A stretch of DNA of 7,255 bases from Clostridia bacterium (GTDB lineage: Bacteria; Bacillota_A; Clostridia; Christensenellales; Aristaeellaceae), in contig JAGBBE010000203.1 in the NCBI GenBank assembly GCA_017938645.1, positions 1 to 7,255 of the forward strand, given 5' to 3'. Both the position numbers and the translations under genes were made by a program. Positions 1 to 7,254 of this stretch are shown here, piece by piece. Under the pieces are notes generated by a model. It worked only from the letters and a program-made list of their open reading frames with translations, did not search any database and was not told where the DNA came from. The stretch's first letter is position 1; every line of letters begins with the position of its first letter.

Positions 1-3000
1 AAAGTGTACCTGAATTTCTCGCCTGTAGGCATACGGCGTTTTCAGCACCTCATACATGAAGTCCTGAATATACTTTTTATCCACCCAAGTTGCGCCCAGT
101 CGTACCTCTATTTCGGAGGCGTCAAGGTCTTGGGGCTGGGCTGCTTCCAGTGCCCGGACATTGGGAAGAAAACGTTCGTCCTGTTCAGCAATTAAACGGG
201 CTGTGCGCAGTTTCTGGCGCACATTACCGGACAGGTATTCATCTGCTGTCATGTACCGGAGAGGCCTTTCTTCCCTACCGGTTTCCGGCAGAGGAAAGAT
301 CACGCCGGTCAGTTCTTCCGCTATTTCATTCTCGGACTTTCCTGTAAGCTGAGCCATAAACGGCAGATCGACGCCAGCCTTCTCACCAATGGACACCGCC
401 AGCGCTTCCGCAGCCGTATCGACATGTGTGATGCTGCGCTGCTGCTTGATCGTGCGTTTGGTGAACATATCCGCTTTGCGCTTGAGCTGCTGCTGATCGT
501 CCAGCACCTCCAGAGAACACAGGAGGTAATAGGAACTATCATCACTGAAGGCCAGCGCGTTGCCGCGGCTGTTGATCAGTCCGTATTTTGCTGTGAATGC
601 GTCATACTGCTCGTTGAGCTGCTTTTGCAGTTCATAAATGGTCCCATCCTCGGCTTCATCAAGCTGTGCGTCAATCAGCGCATGCACACAGTCGCGCAAG
701 GCAACCAGTCCTTTGACACGTTCCTGCGCCGTCTGGTTAAGCGATGGTCTGACCATAATGGAGTTTTCACGGTAGTACACCTGACCGTCCACCACGGTAT
801 AGGAGTAGTTTTTCACGTTCGGATCGGCAGGAAGCGTATCGTTGATCTTCTCACCCTCTCCCAGCTCCGGCAAGGCCGCAGGCACGTATTCTCCGTGGAT
901 GTGCTGTACGGCGTCGCGGAGCTGTTCTGCAAGAGGAACGCCTTCGCGCGGGATCACAGTGAAGTCCTGCCGCCCATACTGTGTGCTTTCAGAACTTTCT
1001 TCGCCCAGCACCATTTCAGGATGGTCGATGAAATACTGGTTGATTGCAAAGCCGTCTTTGTTCTCGCCAAGGTGCACCCAATCCGGTTCTGTTACCAACG
1101 GCGATTCGCGCTTCTGCAGAAAGATGATATCCGATACCACATCTGTTCCGGCGTTAGCCCGGAAAGCGTTATTGGGCAGACGGATGGCTCCCAGCAGATC
1201 AACGCGTTCAGCAAGATATTTGCGTACTTCCGGCGACTGCTGATCCAGCGTGTAGCGCGAGGTCACAAAAGCGACCACGCCGCCCGGACGAACCTGATCC
1301 AGAGCCTTCGCAAAAAAGTAATTATGAATGGAAAAACCGAGCTTGTTATAAGCCCGGTCATTTACCTGATACTGTCCAAAGGGTACGTTGCCTATAGCGA
1401 GGTCGTAGAAGTCACGTCTGTCCGTGGTTTCAAAGCCAGCCACAGTGATGTTGGCTTTGGGATAAAGCTGCTGCGCAATGCGGCCGGTGAGGCTGTCCAG
1501 CTCCACACCGTACAGGCGGCTGTCCTGCATGGATTCCGGAAGCATGCCGAAGAAATTGCCAATGCCCATTGACGGTTCCAGAATGTTGCCAGAAGTGAAA
1601 CCCATCTGTTCCACAGCGTCATAGATGGCACGGATCACCGTTGGGCTGGTGTAGTGTGCATTGAGAACGCTGCCCATAGCAGAGGCGTACTCTTCCTCGG
1701 TCAGCAGGCTTTTCAGCTCAGTGTATTCGTTCGCCCACGCCGCATTGTGCTCGTCAAAGGCTTCAGGTATACCACCCCAGCCGACGTAACGAGAGAGGAT
1801 TTCCTGTTCTTCAGGCGTTGCGTTTCGGCCTTCCGCTTCAATTTGTTTGAGGGTATAGATGGCCGCAGCATTGTACTCGTACTTGGTCTTTTTGCCGCCT
1901 GCGCCCAGATTATCGTCTGTGATACGGAAGTTCTGCGGCTCGGGGACAGGTTCTGTCTGCTCCTGAACGGTTTCATTGACGTGTATTGCCTGAACAACAA
2001 CATCAAACGGCAAACCACTTTGCTCCGCAGGATAAACAGCCTCTGTTTCATAGCTGAAGCGGGAAGGAGTATCATCCGTATTGTTTGGCGGCAGCAGCGC
2101 CTGATTCCGTTGATCCAAAGCCAGCAGATGTGCAAAAGTACCCTTGCGTTCTGAGCGGAAGAGTGGGTATGGCAATGTCTTGTCAAACAGCTGCACATAC
2201 TTTTCGCTGATCTCCGTGATATCAAACGGTCTGCCGTCCAGATAGACGGTATCTCCTACGCGATATGCGGGGTCAGCTTTGGCTTCTACCATTTTAGGTT
2301 GTTCAATCGCCGCCAGCTGTGCCTGCGCTTTCTCGTCAGGATAATCGCCATAGGAACGTAGATACACCATGTTCTGCTGATCATACACAGCAGCGCCGTC
2401 ATACTGAAAACCATCTGCCTCCATCGTGCCATTCACATAGCCCTGTGCGGCCTGCTCCGCTTCCTCCAGCGTCTGATAATCAAGCTTTGCATCGAATCCG
2501 TTTTCAAAGTGATGGTATACCATTACCAGATACGGAGGAGCCATCTGTGCAGCATACTGGTCAATCGCTTCTTCCGTCAGCCATTCGGGCTTTTGCGGAA
2601 GCGACTGATACAGTTCCCTCATTTTGGCGATCTGTTCATAAACATTGCCTGCCCACAGATGCTTTTCGCTGCGCCCACCAGCACCAAGAAAATAGTCGCA
2701 GTCGGAACGCAGACGGCTTAGCAATCTATAGTCCTCTGTGCGATCACTCTGCGTTTCCAACGCTTCCTCTGCATGATCCTGCAATGGTTCATCCGCCATA
2801 CGCTGGACTTTCTGCTTTTCTTCCAGCGCTGCTTTTTCTTCCACAGTCAGGTAGCGATCCTGCCGAATCAGCTCCATGATGCGTTTGGCAACATTCGGCC
2901 AGCCAAGCTGAAGTGTTTCGCATTTGTCTTTTTTTAGCCGAATACCCTTGCCGTCATGCCACTCGTCACTATGCCACTCGCCAGAAACAGCCGGGGAATG

Positions 3001-5040
3001 GCCGCCGATCCCATACCCATCCTTCAGGAAAGAGATTTTCTCCTGCGGCGTATGCGGCTCCAGAAAGAATTGCTGTGTTTTTTCTTTCCAGCCACCGTAT
3101 TGATTGCCTCTGACAAGAACCTCGTTGATCTCATCTTCAGTGATGAAGCGGTTCAGCTCTGTAACTTCCTCCAGAGAAGAAACGTAATCCCTGCGTTGGG
3201 TGAACATTTCTTCTAACCGTTCTCCGGCTTCGTACAGTCGGTGATAACGGAAACGCATCAGGCTATGGTTGTCCTGATATGCAGCCAGGAAAGCCTTGTA
3301 TTCGTCTGCAATGATCTGCAGCATATCCGGCTTGGCAAGCGCTTCTGCAATATGAATCGTGCAGTCGGGATAGACGTCTCGATTCAGCTCCGTCAGAGTG
3401 GTCATGTACCCCTCATTACGTGCCTGCTCACTCAAATCACGCACGATATAGGAAAGCGTTTCAGCCAGCTGGTATCGCTCTCTACCAGGAGCCGAGGCAA
3501 TTTCAAGTGATGTCGCAAACTGCCCCGCATCCAGCAGTTCGCCTATACGTTTGGCTGCATCCTCCCAGGAGATCACCTGGGCAGTGCGTACATACCGTGC
3601 CGATGTACCGCGGGCAATGCGAATACCTTCTTCCGCATACCACACGCTGATCGGCCCCTGTGCGGTGTCAAAGCCGTTTCCACCATGGTAGGTAGTACGC
3701 AAGATAGCACTTATGTTTTCGATGGATTTACCCTTGCTGTACTCGGTCACAAGGAACTTCCGATGTTCAGCGGCATTGCTTCCCAGACGCAGAATCTGAT
3801 CCACCGTATCCTGCGGAATAGAAAAGGCGAAGGGCGCGAATAATGCGCTCTCCGCCTGCTGGATGGTTTGAATTTGTTCTGCCTCCGATGGAAAGGAGAC
3901 GTCGAGAAAGCTCAGCTGTAAACCAGCTCCATGAGGATCACTTCCTCGGCCTGTGCCTTCAGGGCGTTCATCTGCTGCGTCCACTGCATCGGATCGCTGG
4001 CTTTCAGTTCCTCCGTCACGCCCTGTGCTGCCGCCATCTCCTGCATCATCTGATTCAGCCGTTGGTTCGCCGTCTCGCTGATCTCCCTGAGATGGCTGTC
4101 CAGCGTCCCGTTCAGCAGCATCGTGTTCCACAGCACCGGCTTGTGCTCCTTCAGGAAGGCTTTGCGCATCCTGCCGTACTTGTTCATCGGCGTTGCGTTC
4201 TGCTGGGGCAGGATCAGGTTGGGCAGAAGATAATCCCCGTTCATGGTGTAAGTCAGTTCGCTCATCGTTCTGGCTCCTTTCTGCGTTTCTCTCGCGTTCA
4301 TACTTTCGGATGGTCGTTTCGATTTCACGAAGCACCGACTCGCTGATCAGGCTGACTGCCGTACCCAGGGCTGCGACAGCATCCGGCGTGTTGAAATCGA
4401 AGACGGTTGTAAAATCGAATTTCTCATATCCTTCCCCGGGTGTCATTCCGCAGCGGGTCAGAAGAAGATAGGACGTGCTGACCACCGCTGCCTGCTGGAA
4501 GAAGTAACTGAGATCATCTTCATTATATCCAGCAAGCGCCGAGCCCTCAATGATGTCGAGCACTTCGCTCTTATGAGCAAACCAGTAATCATCCACCAGA
4601 ATGGAAGCTGTTTCTTCAAGGAATGCGCGAAAGTTCACAGCATCTCCCATGTCAAAACGTTCTTTGATAGCTTCTGTAACCGCATGTTCGTGTTCCTCAT
4701 GAAGCTGCCACAAAAACGGCTGACGGGAGTTTCGCCCTGTGCCTGTATCAGAAAGATCAAAGACATAGTGAAGCTTAACATTATCACCGCTGGAATCAAT
4801 GAGCGCAATGCCCTTGGAACCCCTGCGCACATAACGATGCATGGTGTTGTTCCATACATTGTAGGAGGCACATGCCACCGCATCCGGGCGCTGGGCATGA
4901 ATCAGAAGCTGGTCGGGATACGAATACTTGTACAGCCGCGCAGCCGTTTGAAGAAAAGACGTCCAGCTTTCATAGCTGGACGTAAGCTTCTGTGCGGTAT
5001 TCTGCGCAAGCTGCACATATGTTTGCAGTTTATCCGCCAT
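1..5040 (-). CDS. Giant polyvalent N6-adenine DNA methylase (helicase part probably beyond the left edge), 3' end missing
   Basis: The frame is open for all 1680 codons from ATG 5040 to the left edge; I checked every codon and found no stop. Residues ~1-235 are a conserved N-terminal region (LYKYSYPDQLLIHAQRPDA, then VRRGSKGIALID) faintly like ArdC-type DNA-binding domains. Residues ~240-380 are a hydrophilic, Gly/Asp/Arg/Gln-rich linker that overlaps tnpV in another frame. Residues ~406-507 and ~632-732 are two related modules. Residues ~773-833 resemble LPD11 (RLRSDCDYFLGAGG, KHLWAGN). Residues ~926-973 are a small beta-rich unit (YRVGDTVYLD). Residues ~1038-1312 are an N6-adenine methylase domain with SAM motif I EPSMGIGNF (1155-1163) and catalytic motif IV NVPF (1218-1221, in place of N/DPPY/F). 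Residues 1313-1680 lead toward an SNF2-type helicase that homologues carry next; it is not in the window. The family is found in clostridial conjugative elements and is thought to methylate or protect transferred DNA. Activity here is untested. Confidence 0.9.
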   Translation of the reverse strand, partial: MADKLQTYVQLAQNTAQKLTSSYESWTSFLQTAARLYKYSYPDQLLIHAQRPDAVACASYNVWNNTMHRYVRRGSKGIALIDSSGDNVKLHYVFDLSDTGTGRNSRQPFLWQLHEEHEHAVTEAIKERFDMGDAVNFRAFLEETASILVDDYWFAHKSEVLDIIEGSALAGYNEDDLSYFFQQAAVVSTSYLLLTRCGMTPGEGYEKFDFTTVFDFNTPDAVAALGTAVSLISESVLREIETTIRKYERERNAERSQNDERTDLHHERGLSSAQPDPAPAERNADEQVRQDAQSLPEGAQAGAVEHDAAERDAGQPSQGDQRDGEPTAESDDAGDGGSTGRDGGTESQRSDAVDAADERPEGTGRGSDPHGAGLQLSFLDVSFPSEAEQIQTIQQAESALFAPFAFSIPQDTVDQILRLGSNAAEHRKFLVTEYSKGKSIENISAILRTTYHGGNGFDTAQGPISVWYAEEGIRIARGTSARYVRTAQVISWEDAAKRIGELLDAGQFATSLEIASAPGRERYQLAETLSYIVRDLSEQARNEGYMTTLTELNRDVYPDCTIHIAEALAKPDMLQIIADEYKAFLAAYQDNHSLMRFRYHRLYEAGERLEEMFTQRRDYVSSLEEVTELNRFITEDEINEVLVRGNQYGGWKEKTQQFFLEPHTPQEKISFLKDGYGIGGHSPAVSGEWHSDEWHDGKGIRLKKDKCETLQLGWPNVAKRIMELIRQDRYLTVEEKAALEEKQKVQRMADEPLQDHAEEALETQSDRTEDYRLLSRLRSDCDYFLGAGGRSEKHLWAGNVYEQIAKMRELYQSLPQKPEWLTEEAIDQYAAQMAPPYLVMVYHHFENGFDAKLDYQTLEEAEQAAQGYVNGTMEADGFQYDGAAVYDQQNMVYLRSYGDYPDEKAQAQLAAIEQPKMVEAKADPAYRVGDTVYLDGRPFDITEISEKYVQLFDKTLPYPLFRSERKGTFAHLLALDQRNQALLPPNNTDDTPSRFSYETEAVYPAEQSGLPFDVVVQAIHVNETVQEQTEPVPEPQNFRITDDNLGAGGKKTKYEYNAAAIYTLKQIEAEGRNATPEEQEILSRYVGWGGIPEAFDEHNAAWANEYTELKSLLTEEEYASAMGSVLNAHYTSPTVIRAIYDAVEQMGFTSGNILEPSMGIGNFFGMLPESMQDSRLYGVELDSLTGRIAQQLYPKANITVAGFETTDRRDFYDLAIGNVPFGQYQVNDRAYNKLGFSIHNYFFAKALDQVRPGGVVAFVTSRYTLDQQSPEVRKYLAERVDLLGAIRLPNNAFRANAGTDVVSDIIFLQKRESPLVTEPDWVHLGENKDGFAINQYFIDHPEMVLGEESSESTQYGRQDFTVIPREGVPLAEQLRDAVQHIHGEYVPAALPELGEGEKINDTLPADPNVKNYSYTVVDGQVYYRENSIMVRPSLNQTAQERVKGLVALRDCVHALIDAQLDEAEDGTIYELQKQLNEQYDAFTAKYGLINSRGNALAFSDDSSYYLLCSLEVLDDQQQLKRKADMFTKRTIKQQRSITHVDTAAEALAVSIGEKAGVDLPFMAQLTGKSENEIAEELTGVIFPLPETGREERPLRYMTADEYLSGNVRQKLRTARLIAEQDERFLPNVRALEAAQPQDLDASEIEVRLGATWVDKKYIQDFMYEVLKTPYAYRREIQVHF
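2845..3147 (-). repeat. Second copy of the duplicated ~100-residue module in the giant protein
   Basis: Residues ~632-732. It shows the same order of elements as the first copy: ITEDEINEVLVRGN, KISFLKDGYGIGGH, GKGIRL, then LGWPNVAKRIMELIRQDRYL. Spacing of the GN, GG, GI and W...KRI..L landmarks matches the first copy within a few residues. This copy also contains a small internal EWHSD/EWHDG doubling. Confidence 0.5.
3517..3825 (-). repeat. First copy of a duplicated ~100-residue module in the giant protein
   Basis: Residues ~406-507. The pattern is shared with the second copy: an initial Ile/Val-rich helix ending in a GSN motif, a helix, an ISAIL...YHGGNGF segment, a GIRI strand, then ISWEDAAKRIGELLDAGQF. 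It is divergent protein-level duplication, not a DNA repeat. Function unknown; it may be a nucleic-acid or protein contact module. Confidence 0.5.
3912..4265 (-). CDS. tnpV: TnpV-like transposon protein, nested out of frame inside the giant methylase gene
   Basis: 117 residues from ATG 4265 (MSELTYTMNGDYLLPNLILP) to TGA. It matches the TnpV family as I know it in length and motifs: YTxxGDYLLPNL, KYGRMRKAFLKEHKPVLW, LNGTL, a helical middle, MQWTQQMNALKAQAEE and an ILMELVYS end. TnpV proteins are small proteins of unknown mechanism in Tn1549-type and related elements. AAAGGAG lies 8 nt upstream of the ATG, a good ribosome binding site, which favours 4265 over the longer in-frame extension to 4328. 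The whole gene lies within the methylase reading frame but in a different phase on the same strand. The overlapping methylase residues (~259-377) are low-complexity linker, whereas this frame encodes a compact helical protein, so selection here probably acts mainly on tnpV. Expression would come from the same long transcript. Alternative: the frame is maintained but not translated. Confidence 0.75.
   Translation of the reverse strand: MSELTYTMNGDYLLPNLILPQQNATPMNKYGRMRKAFLKEHKPVLWNTMLLNGTLDSHLREISETANQRLNQMMQEMAAAQGVTEELKASDPMQWTQQMNALKAQAEEVILMELVYS
4274..4280 (-). promoter_or_regulatory. Internal ribosome binding site of tnpV
   Basis: AAAGGAG (4280-4274) followed by an 8-nt spacer and ATG 4265. 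It lies inside the methylase frame at codons for Ala-Glu-Arg-Ser, so it is an internal initiation site supporting real translation of the nested gene. Confidence 0.7.
4951..4983 (-). terminator. Terminator-like hairpin inside the start of the giant methylase gene
   Basis: On the minus strand ACGTCCAGCT and AGCTGGACGT form a perfect 10-bp stem around the 5-nt loop ATGAA, followed by CTTTTCTT. It begins about 57 nt after the methylase start codon and covers codons ~20-28. The form is that of an intrinsic terminator or attenuator, although the T-run is interrupted by C. It could reduce transcription of the giant gene or simply reflect codon choice; function is untested. Confidence 0.5.
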
Positions 5041-5269
5041 ATTCATCCTCCTCATTAAAACAGAAGTCAGCATTGCGCATCAGGGCGTCATATTCTTCGT
5101 CCGTTATCCTGCTCAGTTTGGATAGCACGGAATCTGAAAGAGTTTTCAGTTCCTGTTCTTCTTCAGTTAGCTGAGATGCCATTTCGTTGATTGTAGCAAT
5201 TAGGCCTGTAAGAGTCCCTGTGTCATAGATACAAATGAGGTTGAGTTCTCGGATGGTGAAGTGGAGCAT
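5030..5269 (-). CDS. Transposon-transfer assisting protein (TTRAP-like), small
   Basis: 79 residues from ATG 5269 (MLHFTIRELNLICIYDTG) to TAA. The N-terminal pattern xFTxxExNLxCIYxTG-x-TGLI, a middle acidic helix (LTEEEQELKTLSDSVLSKL) and a short ITDEEYDAL segment match my memory of the TTRAP family (PF14203), a small protein encoded beside the large methylase/helicase in Tn1549-like conjugative elements. Its biochemical role is unknown; the family name implies help in element transfer. The protein is acidic, without signal peptide, membrane segment or catalytic motif, and ends EEDEYGG. The stop overlaps the start of the giant methylase gene by 11 bp, and that gene's GGAGG lies inside this coding region, so the two are co-translated. 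Its own promoter is not apparent. Confidence 0.8.
   Translation of the reverse strand: MLHFTIRELNLICIYDTGTLTGLIATINEMASQLTEEEQELKTLSDSVLSKLSRITDEEYDALMRNADFCFNEEDEYGG
5047..5053 (-). promoter_or_regulatory. Ribosome binding site of the giant methylase gene, inside the upstream gene
   Basis: GAGGAGG (5053-5047) lies within the last codons of the TTRAP-like gene, 6 nt before ATG 5040. The strong site and the 11-bp gene overlap support 5040 as the true start and indicate translational coupling. Confidence 0.85.
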
Positions 5270-5275
5270 AAAAAA

Positions 5276-5280
5276 CCTCC
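5276..5280 (-). promoter_or_regulatory. Ribosome binding site GGAGG of the TTRAP-like gene
   Basis: GGAGG (5280-5276) is followed by six T and then ATG at 5269. This ideal spacing decides against the in-frame TTG at 5284, which lies upstream of the site. Confidence 0.85.
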
Positions 5281-5301
5281 GCAAAAATCAAAAGTGAAAA
5301 G

Positions 5302-5354: not shown

Positions 5355-6074
5355 CTATTTCTGCTGTTCCTTTTTCTTCTTTGCCTGAGCGACAATCGCC
5401 GCCAAGTTATCTTCTTTCAGGACTTTGGGATACTTCTGTTCAAAATCGACCAGCAAGTCTTTGGTTTCCATTTCTGCCTCGCGATATTTCTGATACAGTT
5501 CACCTGCATTGGGATGATCCACAGCATCTTTCACCATCGTCCAAATTTCCTCTGAAACCTGTTCAGCAGAACCGTATAATTCTACCACAGCTCGCTGAAT
5601 CTTCTCAAAGGTCATGGGATTCTCAAGACGCTGATGCTCCGCAAGGATGCCAACGATATCGGAAAGATCGTTTTTGTAAGGCCTTGCAGACACAAGTTTC
5701 ATGGCGATCAGATACTCAGCCTTTACTGTGCGAACCTCAAGAATCCGGCCAAACTCCTTGTAGTGCACAGAATACTGACGAATCTTCGGTGTATAAGATT
5801 TTGTTTTGACAAAATCCTCGTTGAGCCATCCATTGGGCAGACCGTATTCATCCCCAACATGGTTAATGGCATCCTTCATGGCCGATGATGCATCGATCAG
5901 CGCATCCATATCGTAGGTGGATTCTCTAAATCCATAATTGGCAAGAATGGCCGCTCCGCCGATCAGAATGATCTCCGCAGGCATTCCTTTCCCGCCGAGC
6001 TTTTTATACTCTCTGGCCAGCGCTTTCAGATAAGTGTCCAGATTTTCCTGCGTAAAAAGTGCTTTAGACGACAT
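5355..6074 (-). CDS. DUF6036/AbiEii-like nucleotidyltransferase, probable toxin or defence effector
   Basis: 239 residues from ATG 6074, which overlaps the end of the HTH gene. A recognisable nucleotidyltransferase core is present: IGGAAIL (Gly39-Gly40), then STYDMDALID with the metal-binding pair Asp55 and Asp57, and a later block AEYLIAMKLVSARPYKNDLSDI (Lys126, Arg131, Lys134, Asp136, Asp139) typical of AbiEii/MenT/DUF6036-type enzymes. Such proteins transfer a nucleotide from NTP to an acceptor; in the MenT toxins the acceptor is the tRNA 3' end. The substrate here is not shown. The C-terminal ~90 residues are helical and the tail is Lys/Gln-rich (AKKKKEQQK), possibly for nucleic-acid contact. 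The ribosome binding site is weak (about GCGAG), so translation probably depends on coupling to the regulator gene, which would keep output below that of the regulator. An intrinsic terminator follows. All core residues are present, so the enzyme is probably active. It is cytoplasmic, with no signal peptide. Confidence 0.85.
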   Translation of the reverse strand: MSSKALFTQENLDTYLKALAREYKKLGGKGMPAEIILIGGAAILANYGFRESTYDMDALIDASSAMKDAINHVGDEYGLPNGWLNEDFVKTKSYTPKIRQYSVHYKEFGRILEVRTVKAEYLIAMKLVSARPYKNDLSDIVGILAEHQRLENPMTFEKIQRAVVELYGSAEQVSEEIWTMVKDAVDHPNAGELYQKYREAEMETKDLLVDFEQKYPKVLKEDNLAAIVAQAKKKKEQQK

Positions 6075-6645
6075 TTCTGATCTCGCTTTCTATGATATTA
6101 AATCTTAAAAATTCAGGTATGGCAGCCTGATAGCTGCGCTCAGCGTGCGTCGTTGTGTTTGATACAGCATCCGCCATCAATACGCTCAAAGGGTAAAGCG
6201 GCTTTGCCAATCGCTTGTTTCGCAGATCATTGTATTCACTGCACAGGGGCAGATCATTTTCGCGGCTGAGATAGTCCACCATCGCCAGCAGATACAGACA
6301 CTCTGCCATCCACTTCTTTTGATAGTATTGTCGGATCGTATCACTTTCCAGAACGTCAATGATGAAATCAATATCGCCCATTTCTTTCACACGATGGCAT
6401 ACATTGCTTTTGAACACATCAAAACTGCTGCGGGGTTCTTCAACCGCCTCCATTCGGTCACGGATCAAATCTTCTATAGAAACATGCAGCACTCTGGCAA
6501 TTTTGTAAAGCGTTTCGGCAGAGCATTTCTCAATTTGTGCTTTGCCGCTGCAAATATCACTGATCGTAGCATGCGGAAGGCCGCTTTCTTTGGCAAGCCG
6601 GTACTTCGTCATGTTCTGCTGGTTCAGCATCGTGTTGATGGTCAT
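6064..6645 (-). CDS. XRE-family helix-turn-helix regulator, probable antitoxin/autorepressor
   Basis: 193 residues from ATG 6645 to TAA. Residues ~12-61 form a classic XRE/HTH_3 fold: KYRLAKESG is helix 2, PHATISDICSGK holds the recognition helix, and LYKIARVLHVSIEDLI closes the domain. Residues ~70-193 form a separate helical domain (SNVCHRVKEMGD, YLLAMVDYLSREN, YNDLRNKRL) of a type I recall in other clostridial HTH proteins paired with nucleotidyltransferases, though I cannot name it. The stop overlaps the start of the nucleotidyltransferase gene by 11 bp (ATGTCGTCTAA), so the two are translationally coupled, with the regulator made first. That order is usual for toxin-antitoxin pairs. It probably binds its own promoter spacer. 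Role as DNA-binding protein: confident. Role as antitoxin: inferred from context and from the AbiEi/AbiEii analogy; it has the XRE fold rather than the AbiEi winged helix. Confidence 0.87.
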   Translation of the reverse strand: MTINTMLNQQNMTKYRLAKESGLPHATISDICSGKAQIEKCSAETLYKIARVLHVSIEDLIRDRMEAVEEPRSSFDVFKSNVCHRVKEMGDIDFIIDVLESDTIRQYYQKKWMAECLYLLAMVDYLSRENDLPLCSEYNDLRNKRLAKPLYPLSVLMADAVSNTTTHAERSYQAAIPEFLRFNIIESEIRNVV

Positions 6646-6651
6646 AAGCAT

Positions 6652-6658
6652 CCCTCCC
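6652..6658 (-). promoter_or_regulatory. Ribosome binding site GGGAGGG deciding the HTH gene start
   Basis: GGGAGGG (6658-6652) precedes two in-frame ATG codons. The first, at 6651, directly abuts it with no spacing. The second, at 6645, leaves 7 nt after GGGAGG, the normal spacing, so 6645 is chosen. A possible TTG start at 6693 is part of the -35 box and cannot be on the transcript from this promoter. Confidence 0.8.
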
Positions 6659-6664
6659 GTAAAT

Positions 6665-6693
6665 ATTATATCGGTTGACCGAAATGCTGTCAA
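6665..6693 (-). promoter_or_regulatory. Consensus sigma-70/SigA promoter of the HTH-nucleotidyltransferase cassette
   Basis: Reading the minus strand, a perfect -35 box TTGACA lies at 6693-6688 and a perfect -10 box TATAAT at 6670-6665, separated by exactly 17 bp. Transcription should begin near 6658, only about 13 nt before the start codon, so the Shine-Dalgarno sequence sits almost at the 5' end of the mRNA. A promoter this close to consensus should be strong unless repressed. That fits control by the HTH protein it drives. Confidence 0.88.
6671..6682. promoter_or_regulatory. Candidate operator: inverted repeat in the -35/-10 spacer
   Basis: TCGGT-TG-ACCGA (plus strand, 6671-6682) is a perfect 5-bp inverted repeat with a 2-nt centre. 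It abuts the -10 box and lies wholly in the promoter spacer. A second overlapping inverted repeat, TTGAC-N9-GTCAA (6675-6693), includes the -35 box. A dimer of the XRE-type protein encoded directly downstream bound at either site would block RNA polymerase. The sequence shows the symmetry; the autorepression is inferred from how regulators of this class usually behave. Confidence 0.6.
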
Positions 6694-6741: not shown

Positions 6742-7254
6742 TTATCGCTCCATTTCGACTTTTTTCGCTTTTCCTTGAAGCCTCTGCTCATGCTGCTTCT
6801 TATGCCAATATGCTTCCAGCCCATCTCTGGCCCACTTGGGAAGCTGTTCTTCTTTCAGCGTTCCCATCACTTCATACCGTTCAAAGCGGCTTTTCTCACC
6901 AGAGAACAAGTCCACACAGAAACAGGTGTTACCACGGCTTTTGGGGCTTGCGCCGAAACCACCTGTACAGAGTTTGAGTTGATAATTAGCTTTCTGATAT
7001 TCTCTGCGCAGCTTATCCGGCTTGATGACGATCACTTTGTTGTGCAGATCATCGTCACCGGTAATGGGTGTGCAATCCTTAATGGTCAGCGGAGAAACAT
7101 CCTGACCTTCCAATCGAAGATCATTGAACATTTCGCGCGTTTTTGCTGCCTGCTCTGCGACTCGTTCTCCGAATAGCTGGATGATCTCCGCATAATCATC
7201 GCTGCCCATGACCTCATCATAGACGGCATAGATCAATGCAGGGCGACAGTAGGC
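6742..7254 (-). CDS. C-terminal part of an unrecognised mobile-element backbone protein
   Basis: The frame is open to the right edge and ends at TAA (6744-6742). It gives 170 residues, starting AYCRPALIYAVYDEV. A TTG codon occurs at 7236 but has no ribosome binding site and the frame continues upstream of it, so this is the 3' part of a longer gene. I do not recognise the family with certainty. The first ~45 residues contain EIIQLFGERVAEQAAKTREM, which loosely recalls DUF3849-type proteins of clostridial conjugative elements (weak). The middle carries a Gly-rich block, CTGGFGASPKSRGNTCFC, followed by GEKSRFERYEVMG. Similar GGFG-x2-P-x2-RG...GE...R patterns occur, as I recall, in hypothetical proteins of such elements. 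The tail is highly charged (Lys/Arg/Glu/Gln) and probably exposed. No signal peptide or membrane segment is visible. No terminator follows, so transcripts may run into the next gene. Confidence 0.75.
   Translation of the reverse strand, partial: AYCRPALIYAVYDEVMGSDDYAEIIQLFGERVAEQAAKTREMFNDLRLEGQDVSPLTIKDCTPITGDDDLHNKVIVIKPDKLRREYQKANYQLKLCTGGFGASPKSRGNTCFCVDLFSGEKSRFERYEVMGTLKEEQLPKWARDGLEAYWHKKQHEQRLQGKAKKVEMER

Follow-up and report, generated by a model that had tools for sequence, protein, structure and literature searches.

A single stretch of DNA in a Clostridia bacterium very probably codes, on the same strand, for two proteins: the flexible spacer of a giant methylase/helicase and, in another reading frame, the small protein TnpV. 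The window, by which we mean the whole stretch analysed (7,255 nt), carries a tnpV gene of 117 codons that starts with ATG and ends with the stop TGA (3912..4265, minus strand), lies wholly inside the giant gene on the same strand and is in phase +1 relative to it, a phase that is conserved among homologues. Its product matches the Pfam family TnpV (PF14198) at positions 1-111 of 111 (E 3.1e-41; 140.3 bits, cut-off 27), and because the match is full length the nested frame is not a chance open reading frame. A Shine-Dalgarno motif, AAAGGAG (4274..4280, minus strand), is found 8 nt before the ATG (4265-4263). This full-length match and this motif bear out the original prediction, which was made from the letters of the window and placed a full-length, out-of-frame TnpV gene with its own ribosome binding site inside the methylase; the extent it gave for the overlap, residues ~259-377 of the giant, agrees with a count from the ATG at 5040.

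The host gene (1..5040, minus strand; 3′ end beyond the window) is identified as a polyvalent methylase/helicase gene by its LPD11 domain and its nearest relatives. Its reading frame is free of stops from 5073 to the window edge on the minus strand, leaving at least 1680 codons open, and the ATG at 5040 is the probable start. The great length of the protein combined with an LPD11 domain (2542..2739, minus strand; Pfam PF18824, E 8.2e-30, ORF residues 779-844) places it among the polyvalent proteins. A match to N6_Mtase scored 19.2 bits, under the Pfam cut-off of 20.4. In the database, its two nearest relatives are 2,422 and 2,635 residues long, each with a precomputed SNF2 domain; the SNF2 part is known from these relatives, as the window's own helicase part falls outside the window. 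Alignments define a conserved N-terminal domain (4282..5031, minus strand), which we used as bait for homologues. The ArdC-N header domain gave no Pfam match in the window's giant at E 0.001; judging by its pattern, the N-terminus may be ArdC-like.

Because the bait was the N-terminal part of the giant and not TnpV, the search of 84,980 species genomes did not presuppose nesting. The best 80 of 585 confirmed stretches, together with eight loci from viral contigs, made up a set of 88. TnpV lies directly behind the N-terminal domain in 86 of them and is in phase 1 in all 86, and the giant frame has no stop from the end of the N-terminal domain to the end of TnpV in any of these loci, a count that imposed no open-frame requirement (in L089 the contig ends within TnpV). 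The N-terminal domain of L063 is interrupted by a stop. With the window and two further loci from plasmids, which were found by TnpV similarity, the count becomes 89 of 91, and a larger later pool, with partly overlapping loci, holds 138 nested copies (111 distinct), every one in phase 1. We looked for homologues in which the linker is kept but the nested frame is lost, and there were none among the 88 loci: 86 have both frames, and in the other two (L085 and L090) the giant is cut short before or at the place of tnpV.

Scans with the N-terminal alignment gave a similar picture. Matches came from 19 of 199 genomes in one phylum; TnpV was present in phase 1 at all 16 places above 100 bits (30 bits for its weakest match), while below 100 bits L197 had such a TnpV (33 bits), L198 had none, and none was found in the shorter proteins fetched. 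The scan of one class yielded matches in 23 of 296 genomes, and those of two further phyla in 17 of 198 and 2 of 198, where giants occurred only in the centre genomes (a Collinsella isolate and a Paludibacteraceae MAG) and the other matches were short proteins. From the class and these two phyla came 15 giants with a phase-1 TnpV match, four of them weak (17-24 bits), one giant without TnpV (L225) and one that read N. TnpV is absent from three giant-like proteins with weak N-terminal matches (L198, L211 and L225).

Nested copies are also found on named plasmids. We examined nine plasmid records, from 40 listed among 2,029 that match the giant's protein somewhere, and eight of the nine have a phase-1 TnpV-like ORF: those of Cohnella (131 bits), two of Enterococcus faecalis (66.9 and 55.5 bits), Listeria monocytogenes (30.7 bits), Anaerococcus prevotii (30.0 bits), Aerococcus (L212; 29.6 bits, with a giant ORF that stops after 436 codons), Ruminococcus albus (27.5 bits) and Streptococcus agalactiae (L210; 15.8 bits). 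None was found in the ninth, from Lactococcus garvieae. Some matches of divergent copies are weak (15.8-33 bits), and their force lies in position and phase. In these eight plasmids, five other divergent loci and a Virgibacillus plasmid, there are 11-24 stops in the third frame and none in the giant frame; in ten out of ten pairs of divergent copies, moreover, identity is higher for TnpV than for the giant frame. Judged by these comparisons, the copies on the Listeria, Enterococcus, Streptococcus, Anaerococcus and Ruminococcus plasmids are divergent cases of nesting. Sequence comparison thus confirms that the nesting is real and more general than the window alone could show. The 86 anchored loci, along with the divergent copies across Bacillota, uphold the earlier view of the arrangement as ancient and general, and since the homologues carry both frames open, its reading as dual-coding DNA with a linker role stands as well.

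The two frames differ in how they change. Among 81 unique nested genes, the tnpV and giant frames have no stops and the third frame has 1095; the two zeros hold partly by definition, for which the anchored set of 86 loci makes up. Every one of 44 unique standalone tnpV genes contains at least one giant-frame stop (mean 4.8), and random synonymous recoding of tnpV creates a mean of 3.5, leaving 2% of genes stop-free. A T before an AA, AG or GA codon makes a giant-frame stop. Such a T occurs in 0 of 3462 cases in nested genes, compared with 808 of 7648 in harmless contexts, a zero that follows from the definition of nested, and in 210 of 1424 cases in standalone genes, compared with 819 of 3503 in harmless contexts. 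For 617 pairs that differ in 25-30% of their DNA, the tnpV frame has an amino-acid identity of.688, the giant frame of.470 and the third frame of.468, so the linker sequence appears to have no conservation of its own. Aligning homologues and counting changes by codon position, as had been proposed as a check, gave a pattern that fits protein-level selection on the tnpV frame: over 568 pairs, changes at giant codon positions 1, 2 and 3 are.396,.270 and.206 in the overlap, with the peak at position 1, versus.307,.243 and.551 in the flank, with the peak at position 3. In the same pairs, fourfold third bases are identical in 91.6% of cases in the overlap versus 43.7% in the flank, and amino-acid identity within the overlap is.652 for TnpV versus.453 for the giant frame. 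TnpV looks to evolve as a protein, and the giant frame looks to be selected only for openness. Both frames of this overlapping pair are thus open and under selection, the giant frame apparently for nothing but the absence of stops.

Structure prediction suggests two different products. AlphaFold models TnpV as a beta hairpin with five helices (mean pLDDT 91.5), for which no significant match to a solved structure was found. For the giant segment encoded by window positions 3523-4506, in which the overlap comprises codons 80-197, pLDDT is below 50 at residues 81-204, which suggests that the linker on the tnpV DNA (3914..4264, minus strand) is disordered, low pLDDT being no proof of disorder. 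When tnpV was recoded synonymously with stops avoided, the hydropathy of the resulting linker was -1.30, versus -1.29 for the real one, and its make-up was similar. The hydrophilic make-up of the linker is the outcome of TnpV codons read in the giant phase. The giant frame here seems to need nothing except openness, and because the linker consists of TnpV codons in the other phase and seems to need only to stay open, a gene can be tolerated at that spot. On one point the earlier prediction, which pointed to similar linker residues in relatives, needs correcting: these residues show no amino-acid conservation over and above that imposed by TnpV, the giant frame faring like the third.

How would tnpV be read? 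AAAGGA is present upstream in 92 of 97 unique nested genes, in 81 of these 9 nt before the start codon, and the giant codon over it is AGG in 90 of the 92, versus 8.8% AGG among 11,545 other arginine codons of the giants. No Shine-Dalgarno motif was found before the nested start of one E. faecalis copy (L213), and the Listeria copy (L209) has only a weak one. Upstream of the nested start, the tnpV frame meets its closest stop at a median distance of 126 nt over 60 distinct sites and at 84 nt in the window. Given the conserved motif and the close stops, internal initiation explains all sites most simply. We infer from the comparative evidence that both frames are translated: ribosomes starting at the giant's ATG would stay in frame 0 and produce a flexible spacer that links the N-terminal to the next domain, for which length and flexibility may be all that is required, and other ribosomes would initiate internally, at the Shine-Dalgarno motif and the ATG near 4265, and make a small folded TnpV, whose output would be coupled to the mRNA of the giant.

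Other readings of the overlap fare worse. The fixed +1 phase would also suit a programmed frameshift by which translation from the giant's N-terminus reaches TnpV and yields a fusion of the N-terminal domain with it, and in 40 of the 60 distinct sites, including the window, no upstream stop in the tnpV frame lies within 57 nt. However, in the other 20 sites such a stop begins no more than 57 nt from the expected start, which leaves little room for a fusion, and in five of them the distance is at most 30 nt; the Shine-Dalgarno motif and ATG are conserved, and free TnpV genes have their own starts, so that we consider a frameshift improbable. It is more improbable still that tnpV is a silent passenger, a copy that landed in the giant and is still readable but unexpressed. 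The present evidence consists of sequence comparison, which leaves some room for that reading; yet it is contradicted by the pattern of selection, namely protein conservation of the tnpV frame across very divergent giants, and conservation of the Shine-Dalgarno motif and co-divergence with the host also speak against it. We give just as little credence to the idea that the linker is the conserved product and the likeness to TnpV its by-product. Protein listings do show a seemingly conserved linker, but the frame identities given above, with the giant frame no better than the third, and the recoding, which reproduces its hydropathy, contradict this idea, and standalone TnpV genes lack the linker frame altogether. 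Internal initiation of a gene under selection within the giant accords best with these observations.

As for the history of the nesting, distances between TnpV copies correlate with those between the N-termini of their hosts (r 0.884 in 66 loci; the best of 2000 permutations reached 0.285), a comparison showing that nesting follows the descent of the host gene. Among 90 matches in 10 genomes, 70 loci were fetched, which hold distinct full-length copies of both kinds, 26 nested and 39 free; these 10 genomes and some plasmids make up the standalone sample. Two TnpV trees, one of 64 nested and 44 standalone rows and one of 61 and 31, each need six label changes, of which at least four and five, respectively, are forced, and the standalone clades fall among nested ones; the trees rest on about 115 columns and are rooted at the midpoint only. 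That the gene was released repeatedly is far more probable than that it was captured again and again at one site and in the same phase. Provided that the root falls among the nested copies, the trees fit one origin in giants, after which tnpV was set free several times (at least four). In a tree of the N-terminal domain (87 rows), the TnpV-bearing giants need three label changes, one of them forced; TnpV is missing from 17 rows, of which 15 are shorter proteins that form a clade, and the other two are the truncated L085 and L225, the latter on a long branch. In L225, about 40 residues join the two neighbouring domains, which may be either the state before insertion or the result of loss.

It would be tempting to go further and propose that TnpV was not captured at all but was born in place by overprinting an existing linker, all free TnpV genes being escapees. 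We consider this possible, though less likely than not. The several standalone clades among nested ones, under midpoint roots, speak for it, as do the most divergent copies found (L001, L196, L197 and L206-L210), which are all nested, and the absence of a significant solved-structure match. Against it, an absent match is no demonstration of a new fold, the giant frame is constrained solely for openness, which better suits a frame in which TnpV came first, and the short linker of L225 resembles what preceded an insertion, although it might be a loss. In the same tentative spirit, we speculate that the TnpV family may have been born in, or may mainly have lived in, the methylase linker since the ancestor of the Bacillota copies or before, with free TnpV genes representing at least four escapes. 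Since the other frame of TnpV is automatically hydrophilic, the host would get a flexible linker at the cost of avoiding stops.

The window's gene shares a full-length family match with TnpV of the Tn4451 type (PF14198). Free copies sit in mobile elements, some of them behind large serine recombinases; the window's gene, in contrast, lies wholly in another gene in a different frame. Next to the free tnpV genes of 44 loci, a large serine recombinase family with DUF4368 was seen in 13 of the 61 upstream-neighbour proteins scanned (79 listed). For the downstream neighbours (62 scanned, 80 listed), 25 families were shown, and this one was not among them. According to one paper, TnpV of Tn4451 has been postulated to act in excision, from its likeness to lambda Xis (PMC3158075). 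Our fold comparison, having returned no match, neither supports nor excludes an Xis-like TnpV, and our leading guess, based on that one published postulate, is that TnpV plays an accessory part when the element is excised or transferred.

Annotation tends to show just one of the two genes. The 22 TnpV proteins closest to the window's (at least 81% identity), among the matches listed (120 of 678), are all on contigs of at most 2,590 bases, probably because gene callers pass over tnpV unless the giant is cut short. On the Virgibacillus plasmid, an SNF2-related protein is listed and tnpV is not; the reverse holds for the plasmids of Monoglobus and Cohnella, for which tnpV is given but the giant is missing, in a gene table known to be incomplete. 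The giant shares its multidomain size, LPD11 and residence in mobile elements with the polyvalent proteins of phages and conjugative elements (Iyer et al. 2017, PMC5512222), but the accessible main text of that study describes no nested gene and contains the word 'overlapping' 0 times. Likewise, the main texts, as accessible, of two studies of ICESa2603-family elements (PMC12942858, PMC9815147) describe snf2 as a single gene and a hotspot for integration and use 'overlap' 0 times. The plasmid record of S. agalactiae strain R31-snf2-MTast1 includes a member of this giant family in which a TnpV-like ORF is nested (L210, see above); going by the names, that giant would be the snf2 of those studies. 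The E. coli overlapping genes pop, laoB, ano and asa also place two proteins on one DNA stretch, but in the accessible portions of their descriptions each is antisense to its partner, whereas tnpV is on the same strand, belongs to a recognised family and is conserved across Bacillota. A gene wholly within its partner's alternative frame is also found in the synthetic entanglement of relE inside ilvA, which, according to the available text (PMC10359631), was engineered, unlike the natural pair of tnpV and the giant. A full-text literature search, whose coverage leaves out most subscription journals, found no published report of tnpV nested in the giant. To our knowledge, fully nested same-strand gene pairs with deep conservation have rarely been shown in bacteria.

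A recognised family is thus nested in one phase across the giants of Bacillota, some of them on named plasmids from Bacilli, Clostridia and Tissierellia, and the pair can be used as a natural test case for two proteins evolving in one DNA stretch. Our results also suggest that a core gene of conjugative elements, of the snf2 type, conceals another conserved gene, missed by annotation, so that mutations of and insertions into snf2 may have struck two genes together.

Beyond the tnpV linker, the stretch of the giant methylase/helicase gene that overlies the nested TnpV gene, the sequence varies among giants (loci L134, L147, L086 and L163), as if the linker joined exchangeable modules. In L085 (858-1635), another homologous locus, the giant ORF stops short close to the expected tnpV start, and the DNA beyond the point where it breaks off looks unrelated. 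Many loci also carry, upstream of the giant, a separate ORF of 552-1136 aa (for example, L066 2648-5702) that has ~60 residues in common with the giant's N-terminal domain and shows no nested TnpV. When TnpV was compared by fold, it weakly matched Q8W6J4_2, a 1093-residue viral entry in BFVD (E 0.61, prob 0.97), with an rmsd of 3.0 across 88 columns.

Upstream of the giant in the window lies a TTRAP gene (5030-5284, minus strand; PF14203 match). Its end shares 11 nt with the giant gene, whose start is probably ATG 5040, and this overlap suggests that the two genes are translationally coupled. ORF reading and profile matches place a DUF6036 nucleotidyltransferase gene and an overlapping upstream HTH gene at 5355-6693 on the same strand, and we take this pair to resemble those of the abortive-infection or toxin-antitoxin type. 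Another minus-strand ORF, of at least 164 codons, was read at 6742-7254, and its product had no Pfam or NCBIfam match in profile searches at E 0.001.

One study of Streptococcus suis reports a tnpV gene in elements that have the ICE snf2 gene as their insertion site (PMC9815147). Giants of the snf2 type, such as that of an S. agalactiae plasmid (L210, probably snf2 to judge by the names, with a TnpV-like nested ORF), hold a nested tnpV of their own. Together, the two observations raise the possibility of a route by which tnpV could be released as a free gene.
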